Positions 4,930 through 46,284 of a DNA stretch of 64,000 bases are shown here, one piece after another. The translations under genes were made by a program, and so were the position numbers. Position 1 is the first letter of the stretch. The number at the start of each line of letters is the position of its first letter. The stretch lies in NCBI GenBank assembly GCA_946407895.1, contig CAMJQA010000001.1:62001-126000 (forward strand). Direction: 5' to 3'. The notes under the pieces were generated by a model that was not told the DNA's origin, searched no databases, and worked only from the letters and a program-made list of their open reading frames with translations. This stretch comes from an uncultured Prevotellaceae bacterium. Its GTDB lineage: Bacteria > Bacteroidota > Bacteroidia > Bacteroidales > Bacteroidaceae.

Positions 4930-5103
4930 ATGAAGGAATTTCAAATAATTTCCTACGACATCTTCGACACTTGTCTGGTCAGGGCATGCGGTGCACCAAT
5001 GGCCGTGTTTGACCTACTGACATCTGGAAAACGTTGGATTTCATCCCACCTTTTCTCGCCATGCCAAAGCTCATGCAAGCATGGTTTTGGGCGGTTGGCT
5101 TAA
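4930..5103 (+). pseudogene. Truncated HAD-superfamily hydrolase, interrupted by an 84-bp repeat
   Basis: The frame starts MKEFQIISYDIFDTCLVRAC, carrying the HAD motif I (DIFDT) seen in the large HAD proteins of bacterial polysaccharide loci. It continues through GAPMAVFDLLTSG and then enters the 84-bp repeat at 5030, where the remaining residues are encoded by the repeat and the frame stops at 5101-5103. Only about 33 native codons remain and motifs II-IV are missing. It is read as the remnant of a gene destroyed by insertion of, or recombination at, the repeat. Confidence 0.7.
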
Positions 5104-5113
5104 CGAAAACGTT
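5030..5113 (+). repeat. 84-bp dispersed repeat bounded by AACGTT (copy 1)
   Basis: This segment begins and ends with the palindrome AACGTT and is almost identical, with about four transitions, to the reverse complement of 10019-10102. It contains the inverted motif CATGCAAGCATG. It interrupts the HAD gene remnant and ends 40 bases before the Cas12f-like gene. Two near-identical copies of the same length at unrelated sites suggest a small mobilised element. The transposition mechanism is unknown. Confidence 0.85.
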
Positions 5114-5153
5114 CATTTGCATTCAGCCAAAGTAATTGATTAAACATTAGTGA

Positions 5154-6386
5154 ATGGTTATCACAAGGAAAATAGAGATTTTTGTCTGCGAAGATAACAA
5201 AGAGATAAAAAAGGAGTATTACAACAAACTCTACAGCAATAGGAACATTGCCGTCAAGGTAGCAAATATGGCTGTAAGCCATCTGTTTGCACTTGACAAC
5301 ACCATGCCTTATCTGAACGAGGAAGACAGGGCGACAATATCTTTTCTGGGCGTTAAAGGAAACAAGGCAACACGCCAAAACGCTCCATACGTGGCAGCCA
5401 GTCAGGCATTTAAGGGAAAAGCTGACATGGGCATGGTTAGCTGCATACTACAGAATGTGGAGAAAATGTACCATGAAGACCGAAAGAGTGGTTTGTGGGA
5501 GAAGTCTTTGCGCAGCTACAAGGCTAATATGCCCATACCGTTCAAGGCTGACAGGTTTACGGACCTCCGATTTGAGAAATACCTTAATAAGGAAGGCAAG
5601 GAATGCGAGGGCTGTTTCTTTACCCTGATGGGCGTTCCCTTTCAAATGCGATTCGGCTCAGACAGAAGCGGAAACGGAATCATCGTGAAGAAGATACTTG
5701 AGCAGCGAGGCTTTGATGAATCGAATGGGAAGAACGGGGCTAACACACATTATAAGATGTGCACATCTTCCATCGCTTTTGAGAAGAGGCTGAACCATAA
5801 GACTTATGCGAAAGAGCAAAAGATATTTCTTTACCTCTGTGTGGATATACCACACAAAAAGGTGGACGTTAACCCCGACAATGCTGTGTTCTGCTACCTC
5901 GGACTGACTCATCCTATTCAGTGCCTCATAGACGCAAAGTGTGAGGACATCAATTCAAAGGATGCAAAATGGCTTAATATAGGGACAGCTGAAGAGTTCC
6001 TGAACAGACGAAGGCAGATTCAGGAGGCTATTCATAGATGCCAAATAAACTGCCAATATAATAAAGGCGGAAAGGGGCGTAAACGCAAGACGCAGTCAAT
6101 AGAGCACTTTCACAAGAAAGAAAAGAATTACGTTGAGACAAAACTGCATCTCTATTCAAGGAGACTGGTGGACCTGGCCGTCAATCATGGGTGTGGGACA
6201 ATTTACCTGGTAAGCCAAAAACCACGGGAATTAAGGGCTAAGCTGGATAATGAGGAAGGAAAACCATTCGTGCTACGTAACTGGTCATACTATGGACTCA
6301 AACAGAAGATTCAATATAAATGTAAATTGTATGGAATCGCAATGAAAGAACTTGGGCAAAACGATGATGATAAAGATAATGAATAA
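5154..6386 (+). CDS. Nuclease-dead Cas12f/TnpB-like RNA-guided protein (410 aa)
   Basis: The order of segments fits miniature type V effectors: an N-terminal beta strand of WED type (ITRKIEIFV), a helical REC-like part to about residue 120, LRSYKANMPIPF (119-130), FLYLCVDIP (225-233), then a RuvC-like core. NAVFCYLGLTHPI (243-255) aligns with the RuvC-I strand of Cas12f (GGIDVGVKSPL), but the catalytic Asp position is Tyr248. An Arg/Lys-rich helix follows (285-311). GTIYLVSQ (348-355) aligns with the RuvC-II strand (GTVQMENL), with Val353 in place of the Glu. NWSYYGLKQKIQYKCKLYGI (376-395) matches the helix before the zinc finger. The protein ends at 410 with an acidic tail, so the CxxC zinc finger and RuvC-III Asp are absent. 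It should bind DNA with a guide but not cut. A guide-RNA-like sequence follows at once. The alignment is from memory of Cas12f and needs confirmation. Confidence 0.78.
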   Translation: MVITRKIEIFVCEDNKEIKKEYYNKLYSNRNIAVKVANMAVSHLFALDNTMPYLNEEDRATISFLGVKGNKATRQNAPYVAASQAFKGKADMGMVSCILQNVEKMYHEDRKSGLWEKSLRSYKANMPIPFKADRFTDLRFEKYLNKEGKECEGCFFTLMGVPFQMRFGSDRSGNGIIVKKILEQRGFDESNGKNGANTHYKMCTSSIAFEKRLNHKTYAKEQKIFLYLCVDIPHKKVDVNPDNAVFCYLGLTHPIQCLIDAKCEDINSKDAKWLNIGTAEEFLNRRRQIQEAIHRCQINCQYNKGGKGRKRKTQSIEHFHKKEKNYVETKLHLYSRRLVDLAVNHGCGTIYLVSQKPRELRAKLDNEEGKPFVLRNWSYYGLKQKIQYKCKLYGIAMKELGQNDDDKDNE

Positions 6387-6518
6387 TATTCATTTATGCC
6401 GGGCTGGTTGTACAGCCTTATCGTGAGGGTTTCACCACTCATGAAGCCACTTATTCTCCTCAGCCTAATTCACAGAGGAAACATAAGGAGCATACAATGG
6501 GTTGTTGTTAGGATTCAC
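6378..6518 (+). ncRNA. Putative natural single guide RNA for the Cas12f-like protein
   Basis: The RNA overlaps the stop codon of the Cas12f-like gene. Stems in order: AATGAAT/ATTCATT (6378-6394); GGCTG/CAGCC with a 6-base loop (6402-6417), followed by TTAT; a 10-bp hairpin TCGTGAGGGT/ACCaCTCATGA with one bulged A (6421-6444); and a two-part stem CTTAT..TCCTC/GAGGA..ATAAG (6450-6487), which resembles a repeat:anti-repeat duplex closed by a 13-base loop. It ends AAGGAGCATACAAT (6485-6498). GGGCTG..CAGCC, then TWAT, then a GAG/CTC hairpin, is also the order in the Cas12f tracrRNA scaffold as I remember it, and the 3' end resembles the 3' end of a Cas12f repeat (AAGGAATGCAAC). The guide would be about 6499-6518. 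Boundaries are inferred. Confidence 0.68.
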
Positions 6519-6594
6519 CTCTCCCCCCTCAATGTAAAGACACTGAGAATGTAAACAAGTATATGACGTGAGTTCGATAACTATTACCACTATC

Positions 6595-6640
6595 CATCCC
6601 CCGACTGACTAATGGTTCAGCCGGGGGATGTTGTTTTTAT
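6595..6640 (+). terminator. Rho-independent terminator after the guide RNA
   Basis: CATCCCCCGACTGA (6595-6608) pairs with TCAGCCGGGGGATG (6617-6630) with one mismatch and an 8-base loop, followed by TTGTTTTT. It would end a transcript containing the Cas12f-like gene and guide RNA, about 120 bases past the predicted scaffold end. The stretch between the guide and the terminator (6519-6594) shows no second repeat. Confidence 0.8.
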
Positions 6641-8410: not shown

Positions 8411-9667
8411 CTACAAATTGAACGCCTGGCGGATACAATCCACATAGTCCAACTTCTCCCAGGTGAAAAGTTCCACCTCGACCACCTTCGTTTCCTGATA
8501 GAGTGATTCATAGCGCTTGACCACCTTGCGCGGCTGGCGCCCCATGTGACCGTATGCTGCCGTCTCCTCATAGATGGGATTGCGCAACTTCAGCCGCTGC
8601 TCAATGGCATAGGGGCGCAGGTCGAACAATTCCTGTATCTTTGCAGCAATCTCACCATCGGACAGGCTTACGTGGCTGCGGCCATAAGTGTTTACATATA
8701 CACTGACCGGATCTGCCACCCCAATTGCATAGCTTATCTGCACAAGCACCTCATCGGCCACACCTGCTGCAACCATGTTCTTGGCAATATGCCGGGCGGC
8801 GTAGGCTGCTGAGCGATCTACCTTCGAAGGGTCCTTGCCACTGAAGGCACCGCCTCCGTGAGCCCCCTTGCCACCGTATGTGTCCACAATAATCTTACGG
8901 CCCGTCAGGCCAGTGTCTCCGTGAGGCCCTCCAATGACGAACTTACCTGTGGGGTTAACATGGTAGGTTATGCGGTCGTTGAAGAGATTACGTATCCGCT
9001 CATCGTGAATTTCTTCCCTAACCCTCGGTACCAGGATATTGATGACATCCTCCCTGATGCGCTGCTGCATACGTTCGTCGGTATCGAACTCATCGTGCTG
9101 GGTGGACAATACGATGGTGTCAATGCGAACCGGACGGTTCTCATCGTCATATTCAATAGTCACCTGGCTCTTGGCATCGGGGCGCAGATAGGTCATCTGG
9201 CGTCCCTCGCGCCGGATATCGGCCAAGGTACGCAGCAGGTGGTGAGCCAGGTCCAGGCTCAGAGGGATGTAGTTCTCCGTTTCGTTGGTGGCATAGCCGA
9301 ACATCATGCCCTGGTCTCCGGCACCCTGTTGCTCCGGCACCTGACGGTTTACACCCCGGTTGATGTCATCGCTTTGCTCGTGTATGGCACTGAGCACACC
9401 GCATGAGTTCCCATCGAACATATACTCGCTCTTGGTATAGCCAATGCGGTTGATAACCTCGCGAGCTATGCGCTGCAGGTCAACGTAGGCCGTTGTCTTT
9501 ATCTCCCCGGCCAGCACCACCTGCCCGGTTGTAACGAGTGTTTCGCATGCCACCTTGGCCTGCGGGTCGAATGCCAGCAACTTGTCCAGCACGGCATCAC
9601 TGATTTGATCGGCCACCTTGTCGGGATGGCCCTCACTTACAGATTCAGAAGTAAATAAATAACCCAT
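8411..9667 (-). CDS. metK: S-adenosylmethionine synthetase
   Basis: A 418-residue cytosolic enzyme making S-adenosylmethionine from methionine and ATP. Family signatures include [20 protein letters not shown] at the N-terminus (ATP/methionine site), [12 protein letters not shown] near residue 115 and the phosphate loop [16 protein letters not shown] near residue 275. The length is slightly above the E. coli enzyme, usual for Bacteroidetes. The ATG at 9667 is preceded by a leader of about 225 bases holding a SAM-II-like aptamer, implying feedback control by its own product. Confidence 0.97.
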
Positions 9668-9730: not shown

Positions 9731-9844
9731 TTAAAGGAGCGGTTTGCGCAGAGGGTGGTTCACTTCAACCTTGCTGATTTGTGCAATATCAGAAGACGAT
9801 AGCCTCAATCCCTCACAGGGTGTCCAAAATTGTCGTTTTAGCAT
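9731..9844 (-). CDS. Possible 37-codon leader ORF starting inside the SAM-II aptamer
   Basis: An ATG at 9844-9842 lies within the conserved AATGCTAAA of the aptamer and opens a 37-residue frame (MLKRQFWTPCEG...) ending 63 bases before metK. Nothing proves translation, and the peptide matches no family I recognise. It is listed because SAM-dependent folding would bury its start codon. It could equally be chance. Confidence 0.2.
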   Translation of the reverse strand: MLKRQFWTPCEGLRLSSSDIAQISKVEVNHPLRKPLL

Positions 9845-9885
9845 TTTTTTGTGTGGTTGCAAGCAGCCCAAATCTATCCACATCC
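9834..9885 (-). promoter_or_regulatory. SAM-II-like riboswitch in the metK leader
   Basis: Read on the minus strand: P1 is TGTGG (9882-9878) pairing with CCACA (9856-9852). The loop holds GATTTGGGC and then CTTGCAA just before the 3' P1 strand. P1 is followed by an A-rich run and ATGCTAAAACG. TTTGG in the loop can pair with CTAAA downstream, forming the H-type pseudoknot typical of SAM-II. The arrangement follows the SAM-II consensus (stem, ATTT..TTGCAA loop, AAATG..GCTAAA tail). It begins about 8 bases after the predicted transcription start. Identification is by eye from the consensus. Confidence 0.72.
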
Positions 9886-9897
9886 TTTTTCGGGTGG

Positions 9898-45423: not shown

Positions 45424-46284
45424 ATGAGACAGCTTAAAATCACAAAGAGTATCACCAGTAGAGACAGTGCCTCACTGGATAAGTACCTGCAGGAAATAGG
45501 CCGTGAGGGCCTGCTCACCGTTGACGAAGAGGTAGAGCTTTCGCAGCGCATCCGAAAGGGAGACCGCCAGGCTTTGGACAAGTTGGTCCGGGCCAACCTG
45601 CGTTTTGTAGTCAGTGTGGCTAAGCAGTATCAGAACCAAGGCCTTTCACTGCCCGACCTGATTAACGAGGGGAATGTAGGCCTCATCAAGGCTGCCGAGA
45701 AATTTGATGAGACACGCGGTTTCAAATTCATCAGTTATGCCGTGTGGTGGATTCGCCAAACCATCCTGCAGGCCCTGGCCGAGCAGAGCCGCATTGTGCG
45801 CCTGCCCCTGAACCAGGTAAGTGCCGTGAACAAGATTAGCAAGGCCATGACCAAGTTCGAGCAGGAGAACGAGCGCAAGCCAAGTCCCGACGAACTGGCC
45901 GAGCTGGTGAACGAGTTGCCCGAGAAGATCAACGACAGCCTGCGTGCCAGCGGCCGCCACGTCAGCGTTGACGCTCCCTTCGTGGAAGGTGAGGAGAACA
46001 GCCTGCTCGACGTGATGGTGAACACCGACTCGCCCATGGCCGACAAGGCACTGGTCAAGGAGAGCCTGAACACCGAGATTGCACGGGCACTCAGTATGCT
46101 GAACGAGCGAGAAAGAGACATCGTGGAGATGAGCTTCGGCATCAACCACCAGGAGATGACCCTGGAGGAGATAGGCGAACGCTTTGGCCTGACAAGGGAG
46201 CGCGTACGCCAGATTCGCGAGAAGGCCATCCGCAAGCTGCGCCAGGGAAGCCGCAACAGCCTGTTGCGCTACTATCTGGGATAG
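45424..46284 (+). CDS. rpoD: Primary sigma factor (RpoD/sigma-ABfr type)
   Basis: A 286-residue sigma-70 protein with regions 1.2 to 4.2 but no region 1.1, the form normal for Bacteroidetes. It starts [20 protein letters not shown] and has [20 protein letters not shown] (region 2), [17 protein letters not shown] (2.4, -10-like recognition), and REDIVE-type [20 protein letters not shown] with [18 protein letters not shown] (4.2 HTH). It recognises the TTTG/TAnnTTTG promoters seen across this window. An upstream in-frame start is rejected because the family begins at this Met. Confidence 0.97.

Follow-up and report, generated by a model that had tools for sequence, protein, structure and literature searches.

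The dCas12f gene and the RNA downstream of it

The window, by which we mean the whole 64-kb stretch of DNA that was analysed, contains an open reading frame for a 410-amino-acid protein and, 12 bases past its stop codon, a structured RNA element. The features of this locus are as follows.

5154..6386, + strand: gene for a predicted nuclease-dead Cas12f (dCas12f), 410 aa; open reading frame with stop codon at 6384-6386
6399..6498, + strand: single-guide scaffold, a tracrRNA-like part and a repeat fused; fold z -4.07 and covariance-model match
6401..6418, + strand: stem 1, GGGCTG/CAGCCT, 6401-6406 with 6413-6418; covariation
6421..6444, + strand: stem 2, hairpin GTGAGG .. CACTCAT; covariation
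6446..6491, + strand: stem 3, anti-repeat 6446-6461 and repeat 6475-6491 with a 13-nt loop at 6462-6474; fold
6492..6498, + strand: 7-nt linker AUACAAU before the guide; fold of the window RNA and register of relatives
6499..6518, + strand: predicted guide, first 20 nt (GGGTTGTTGTTAGGATTCAC); register of relatives
6596..6640, + strand: intrinsic-terminator-like hairpin, followed by TTGTTTTT; fold -20.1 kcal/mol

The initial annotation called this a dead Cas12f gene, and our analysis agrees: judged by its sequence, the protein is related to Cas12f but has lost the RuvC catalytic residues. Its best match among PDB profiles is the nuclease-deactivated Cas12f 9n9c (E 2.7e-58), with other Cas12f proteins next, and a Foldseek search with a predicted model of mean pLDDT 79 placed at the top the same entry, a 'dCas12f-gRNA complex' (7e-26), together with 9n9m, a 'dCas12f-gRNA-DNA complex'. 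The homology to Cas12f is nearly full-length, the PADLOC Cas12u3 and Cas12f matches spanning residues 1-399. A Pfam search assigned no family, and the match to the NCBIfam model guided_TnpB is below that model's cut-off. In an alignment with intact Cas12f the RuvC-I Asp column is occupied by Tyr and the RuvC-II Glu column by Val, and the C-terminus precedes RuvC-III and the zinc ribbon, both of which are absent. The protein therefore does not have the intact nuclease active site of a type V-F effector.

This loss is shared by a whole family. We found 834 homologues of the protein and inspected the best 120, among which is one that is 98% identical. In a tree of 39 proteins (midpoint-rooted, with the L085 protein on a long branch and L045 not included), seven intact Cas12f proteins form one side of a branch with support of 100/100. 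The window protein and its 98% identical homologue lie inside a 13-row clade (support 97/95), and the 18-row clade beside it contains 17 of the 18 locus proteins, that of L085 falling outside both. The three RuvC positions (D, E and the RuvC-III residue) are lost in all 32 proteins of the dead family, with Tyr or Phe at the first, and D, E and D are retained in all seven intact proteins.

Folded alone, positions 6399-6498 form three hairpins followed by seven unpaired bases, AUACAAU, a fold that none of 200 shuffles equalled (z -4.07). The initial annotation had placed here a GGGCTG..CAGCC stem, a GAG/CTC hairpin, a repeat:anti-repeat-like stem with a 13-base loop and a 3' end ..AAGGAGCATACAAT, and each was found in its place, the first at 6401-6406 with 6413-6418, the next at 6421-6444, the third at 6446-6491 with its loop at 6462-6474, and the last reaching 6498. 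It had also counted four stems after the gene, the first overlapping the stop codon and so coupling protein to RNA. The stems are indeed present, but we count three hairpins, and none begins at the stop codon. The covarying core starts only at 6401, downstream of the stop at 6384-6386, and we therefore rejected a stem across the stop codon, together with the proposed coupling. When the flanks are included (6388-6518) the z-score is -2.29 and the 3' end finds pairing partners from 6388 onward; this pairing starts past the stop codon and lies outside the conserved core.

In the full fold, AA precedes GC[CA]CUUAU, which is paired with AUAAG[GA]GC, and AUACAAU follows. The longest ungapped run of this helix is 5 bp and ends 11 nt before the guide. 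Its register is that of the repeat:anti-repeat helix of the relatives described below, and from stem 3 followed by AUACAAU we place the start of the guide at 6499. The terminator-like hairpin further downstream has a z-score of -4.03 (1/200 shuffles as good) and is not listed by a terminator pattern scan with a loop limit of 8. No CRISPR array was found within the window, the scaffold being a single unit; a candidate second, decayed repeat at about 6530-6570 was rejected, as 107 of 500 shuffles and 42 of 318 background stretches were as good.

Covariation of the scaffold across homologous loci

In order to determine whether the stems are conserved as structures, which the initial annotation had named as the check on its claim, we aligned 35 scaffolds (34 distinct). 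These come from 38 units, of which an empty one, cut at a contig start, was removed and two near-copies (L016:2545-2670 and L044:1961-2086) were also left out; units without a recognised repeat end had been excluded (for example L005 near 5582, L015 near 6852 and L076 near 251). RNAalifold recovers stems 1 and 2 from this alignment. Stem 1 is paired in 99.0% of cells, with double changes in 4 of its 6 pairs, and stem 2 in 96.3%, with double changes in 7 of 8. Taken together, 97.5% of cells are paired and both partners have changed in 11 of the 14 pairs, so that the stems covary strongly. We observed 116 double-change cells against 33.1 +/- 4.7 in shuffles, none of 500 of which reached this number. 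Further pair types are the weakest measure of covariation and were matched by 10 of 500 shuffles.

Related sequences may exceed shuffles even without a conserved structure. We nevertheless uphold the structure, because two lines agree with it: when the structure is slid along the alignment, pairing reaches at most 52%, and a leave-one-out covariance model (R1), built from 34 related scaffolds with the window excluded, matches 6399-6444 with 59.4 bits and an E-value of 1.4e-17, E-values of these models being rough owing to a short calibration. This is the sole match in the 64 kb. The helix between each repeat and its own anti-repeat has a mean of 6.63, compared with 5.31 +/- 0.19 for swapped pairs, and none of 2000 shuffles was as good. 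We conclude that the guide RNA of the window is well supported as a structure, and the dead Cas12f gene has beside it a guide RNA in the form of a predicted, covarying structure.

Arrays and fused units at related dead-Cas12f loci

Besides the window we examined 21 dead-Cas12f loci, located on 3 genome contigs, 14+3 viral contigs and one viral record (G544); L014/L015 and L011/L018 are near-copies. Viral contigs account for 18 of the 21, a share that says little on the true frequency, since a viral collection was searched. In 20 of the 21 loci the gene and a scaffold are at most about 600 bases apart, and some of these loci belong to the training set of the covariance model; the exception, L020, is cut by a contig end. 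A later model search found 51 scaffolds in these loci.

The scaffolds occur in two arrangements. In array-type relatives, 112-130 nt of scaffold lead up to the first repeat end, repeats are about 36 nt long with a spacing of mostly 65-67 nt, and spacers vary (for example L011, L016, L043 and L044); the arrays at L005 and L006 are degraded. The anti-repeat of the relatives starts about two bases past stem 2 and pairs with the repeat, with 7 nt between the end of the longest ungapped helix and the guide in 23 of the 35 aligned units. Eleven of these 35, the window included, are compact single RNAs in which a scaffold of 71-101 nt carries anti-repeat and repeat as one hairpin. These fused units are the window, two of L005, L009, L019, L021, L034, L040, L083, L084 and L085; the fused helix is less regular in some of them, and additional repeats stand behind the fused unit in L005, L009, L019 and L021. 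With the halves separate in some related units and fused in others, the earlier proposal of a one-piece natural guide RNA is supported, and we regard the fusion of the tracrRNA-like part with the repeat in the window, that is, a natural single-guide RNA, as well supported.

Several further observations concern these loci. One virus record (G544) carries four scaffolds within 10 kb around its dCas12f (L080, G544:88000-98000) and the single-guide unit L034 about 24 kb away. In L083 and L084, viral contigs about 80% alike by eye in the neighbouring gene, the unit lies just before dCas12f (about 5890-5990) and has an identical stretch that begins where stem 2 ends and takes in the guide; the common guide matches only those two contigs. 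A conserved open reading frame of about 75 amino acids (..LKQMNNRSRL..) is a close neighbour of dead Cas12f in 15 of the 20 relatives examined, for example at L018:5325-5552, and gives only weak PHROG and Pfam matches. No copy of it was found near the window gene.

Intact type V-F loci carry the same scaffold

The model also matches just 3' of longer Cas12f genes (L003, L024-L028, L045 and L046; E 6e-8 to 1e-13) in genomes of the same genus and the same family. There the scaffold lies 25 bases or less from an intact Cas12f gene, with CRISPR arrays next to it. The intact proteins are 455-496 aa long and have the motifs GIDLG/GVDLG, ME/LE and ADYN/ADFN; L045 contributes a 378-aa frame near a contig start. 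The occurrence of the same scaffold at intact Cas12f genes with arrays identifies it as a type V-F tracrRNA. The window shares with these loci a homologous effector and a tracrRNA-like scaffold 3' of the gene, and by this homology its scaffold is one that belongs to type V-F CRISPR. In contrast, the V-F loci keep the D/E/D residues, the zinc ribbon and the arrays, and the window has none of these.

Among 399 genomes of the family, a Cas12f-like match is present in 10 and a scaffold match in 7. Two scaffold matches were set aside: that in G398 (E 8.8e-4) showed no such scaffold by eye, and that in G405, of the same genus, is actually a spacer inside an unrelated CRISPR array. This host array (L099, G405:C3, about 1400-1900) has the repeat GTTTCAATCCACGCCCCCACGAGGGGAGCGAC, which we take to be type I-C-like, and the spacer includes the stem 1 sequence of a guide scaffold of this kind (CGGGGTGGCTGTACACCCTTAACA). 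From this spacer it appears that a bacterium of the same genus targets the scaffold of an element of this type.

Since intact Cas12f systems of the same genus and family use the same type of scaffold, the dead protein, its scaffold or both could act as a decoy, competing with active V-F Cas12f as an RNA anti-CRISPR or a dominant-negative protein. PMC11656645 describes RNA anti-CRISPRs that consist of single repeat units, as well as a dead Cas9 from a phage. We consider a decoy very improbable. Many of the scaffolds precede spacer arrays with mostly 65-67 nt spacing and changing content, and two spacers match other elements, as detailed in the next section; both observations count against a decoy because a decoy needs neither. 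Additionally, the window's genome offers no second scaffold (model search with strict filters), and its only Cas12f match is the window gene itself.

Targets of guides and spacers

The predicted guide of the window has no recognisable target in the sequences compared. Against its own genome, 14-mers with up to 2 mismatches gave 8 non-self matches compared with 19 control matches, and 19-mers with up to 3 mismatches gave only the guide itself; the 399 family genomes gave 5 non-self matches, with 2 mismatches each, compared with 3 control matches. No target was found on viral contigs (exact 18-mer) or in phage records. A site in the window's own genome with 10 matching leading bases (L051) was at chance level and was dropped.

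It could be that the window unit is what is left of a dead-Cas12f CRISPR locus in decay, that it has stayed intact only by chance, and that its 'guide' is leftover sequence. The lack of an array, of a target match and of the partner open reading frame nearby is compatible with this, as is the L014 locus, where what follows the repeat is not a spacer but part of a gene that has been interrupted. We nevertheless think such a remnant quite unlikely, given the full-length open frame with its 98% identical homologue, the scaffold register, the strong fold with a linker before the guide, and the terminator-like hairpin. In L014 (4473-4735) a unit of a scaffold and a single repeat interrupts an HTH/excisionase-like gene that is intact in L013:4402-4620, and the bases in the guide position are the remainder of that gene. 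A unit of this kind would be directed against the intact copies of the gene that relatives carry. The apparent match of this 'spacer' to the HTH gene of L013 (24/30) was discarded as an artefact, the guide unit lying inside its own copy of the gene.

From a list of 102 candidate guides, 79 spacer or guide stretches were picked by eye, and one more from L006 brought the total to 80. A comparison of these 80 with 20 records gave clear matches outside arrays for two of them, and a comparison with the phage collection gave none. For the phage guides this comparison took in just a few host genomes, and targets in hosts are possible as well. A spacer of L007 matches 29 of 30 bases on another contig of the same assembly, starting from codon 12 of a DUF6291 gene that adjoins an excisionase-like gene, and a spacer of L016 matches, in 27 of 30 bases, a gene for a RecE-like exonuclease on a different virus contig. 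Both protospacers lie inside genes, and their 5' flanks are TTCA and TTTG, too few for a motif. These matches point, thinly, to silencing of rival elements.

Weaker similarities were also seen. A spacer of G544 (L075) matches 17 of its first 20 bases at the dCas12f gene starts in L011 and L020, with E-values of only 0.15-0.43. The guides of L075 and of L005 near 3502 that contain TAGTATGCCTTACG resemble, in antisense, the 5' end of dCas12f of other phages, and by this resemblance they might possibly serve an attack on a rival dCas12f or self-control. Spacer matches of G548 and G555 (E 0.02-0.07) were weak and were not counted.

Proposed function

The reading that we consider most likely, and on balance probable, is that the natural guide RNA and dCas12f together bind DNA and block transcription. 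The guide RNA would be transcribed, perhaps together with the dCas12f gene, and dCas12f would bind the RNA, which may be trimmed. The complex would then find DNA that matches the guide beside a short 5' flank and stay bound, blocking transcription as a form of natural CRISPR interference. Phage-borne versions could in this way silence rival elements. The chromosomal locus of the window would be a version with a single target, which may be a phage, a prophage or a host gene. Upstream of it are two WbsX genes and one family-2 glycosyltransferase gene, neighbours that place the locus outside any obvious phage genes there. As it has no array and no nearby ORF of about 75 amino acids, the window unit might be decaying.

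The same binding could instead serve activation, dCas12f and the guide RNA recruiting a sigma factor and RNA polymerase to a promoter. The nearest solved relatives, 9n9c and 9n9m, end at the same sequence point as the window protein, and 9n9c (like 9n9m, 9n9o and 9n9q) represents what we take to be the natural Flagellimonas dCas12f-sigmaE system. Additionally, the window's genome has 17 matches to Sigma70_r4_2, of which 16 are marked as exceeding the cut-off. However, no sigma factor gene over the cut-off is linked to the window locus, the nearest in the window being about 40 kb off (near 46075-46239), and just one of 16 virus records has a match that exceeds the cut-off, some 67 kb away from its dCas12f. 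Weaker sigma matches do occur closer to dCas12f in G550, where the match overlaps the L013 HTH gene, and in G545, in a 147-aa frame, which leaves a small chance of a distant sigma-like protein. The two matched protospacers, which sit inside genes, speak against recruitment to a promoter, and we hold activation to be unlikely.

Returning to guide-directed blocking of transcription, we tentatively suggest a wider scenario, possible though short of probable, for its origin. Bacteroidales phages may have taken a host V-F effector, disabled its nuclease and turned it, with tracrRNA and mini-arrays of their own, against rival mobile elements; tracrRNA and repeat would have fused repeatedly, and the chromosome would keep one unit with a fixed guide as a regulator or silencer.

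Relation to known systems

The closest described counterparts are the dCas12f-gRNA complexes 9n9c, 9n9m, 9n9o and 9n9q, which likewise consist of a nuclease-deactivated Cas12f with the same truncation point and a guide RNA. The window system differs from them in that identity in the structure match is 28%, no linked sigma gene over the cut-off is present, and many of its relatives lie on viral contigs with CRISPR mini-arrays.

PMC13418256 describes TldR, a TnpB-like nuclease-dead repressor, some members of which are phage-borne, that acts as an RNA-guided transcription factor with a guide RNA encoded beside its gene. The likeness to the window lies in a dead RuvC protein with an adjoining guide RNA. 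TldR, however, derives from transposon TnpB, whereas the window system derives from Cas12f with a tracrRNA and a repeat; protein and scaffold both go with Cas12f loci, not with TnpB and omega RNA. According to the same paper, RNase III cuts one TldR guide RNA in two, whereas in the window tracrRNA and repeat have, conversely, been joined. Cas12m of subtype V-M is, in PMC11013384, a binding-only type V effector on mobile elements that is reported to block transcription and phages; it belongs to a different effector family. Virus-borne mini-CRISPR arrays in inter-virus conflict, treated in PMC11656645, resemble the loci studied here in that they are short viral arrays with spacers matching related elements, but they use the host effector, whereas the elements studied here encode a dead effector and a tracrRNA of their own.

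Where a CRISPR effector depends on a tracrRNA, a single-guide RNA is usually regarded as engineered. In the literature searched on dCas12f with sigma factors, exaptation, phage-borne Cas12f and mini-arrays we recognised no paper on this dead-Cas12f family. One-piece guide RNAs of other dCas12f systems may well be in print already, and we therefore limit novelty to three points: that viral contigs carry the mini-arrays, that fusion has occurred repeatedly, and that a single unit is found in a chromosome. One family here contains a natural series, from intact Cas12f with tracrRNA and array, through dead Cas12f with viral mini-arrays, to fused units, and with it the transition from immunity to gene control by guide RNAs can be put to the test. 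It also offers a compact natural module, predicted to bind DNA, with its own short guide RNA.

Other features of the window

A dispersed repeat of 91 bp with seven copies in the genome occupies 5028-5118, stopping 35 bases short of the dCas12f gene; from 4932 up to this repeat, the sequence resembles by eye the start of a broken gene. At gathering thresholds, Rfam detected in the window only a SAM-II riboswitch, at 9828-9887 on the minus strand (57.9 bits). The open reading frame behind it (8411-9667) resembles by eye an S-adenosylmethionine synthetase.
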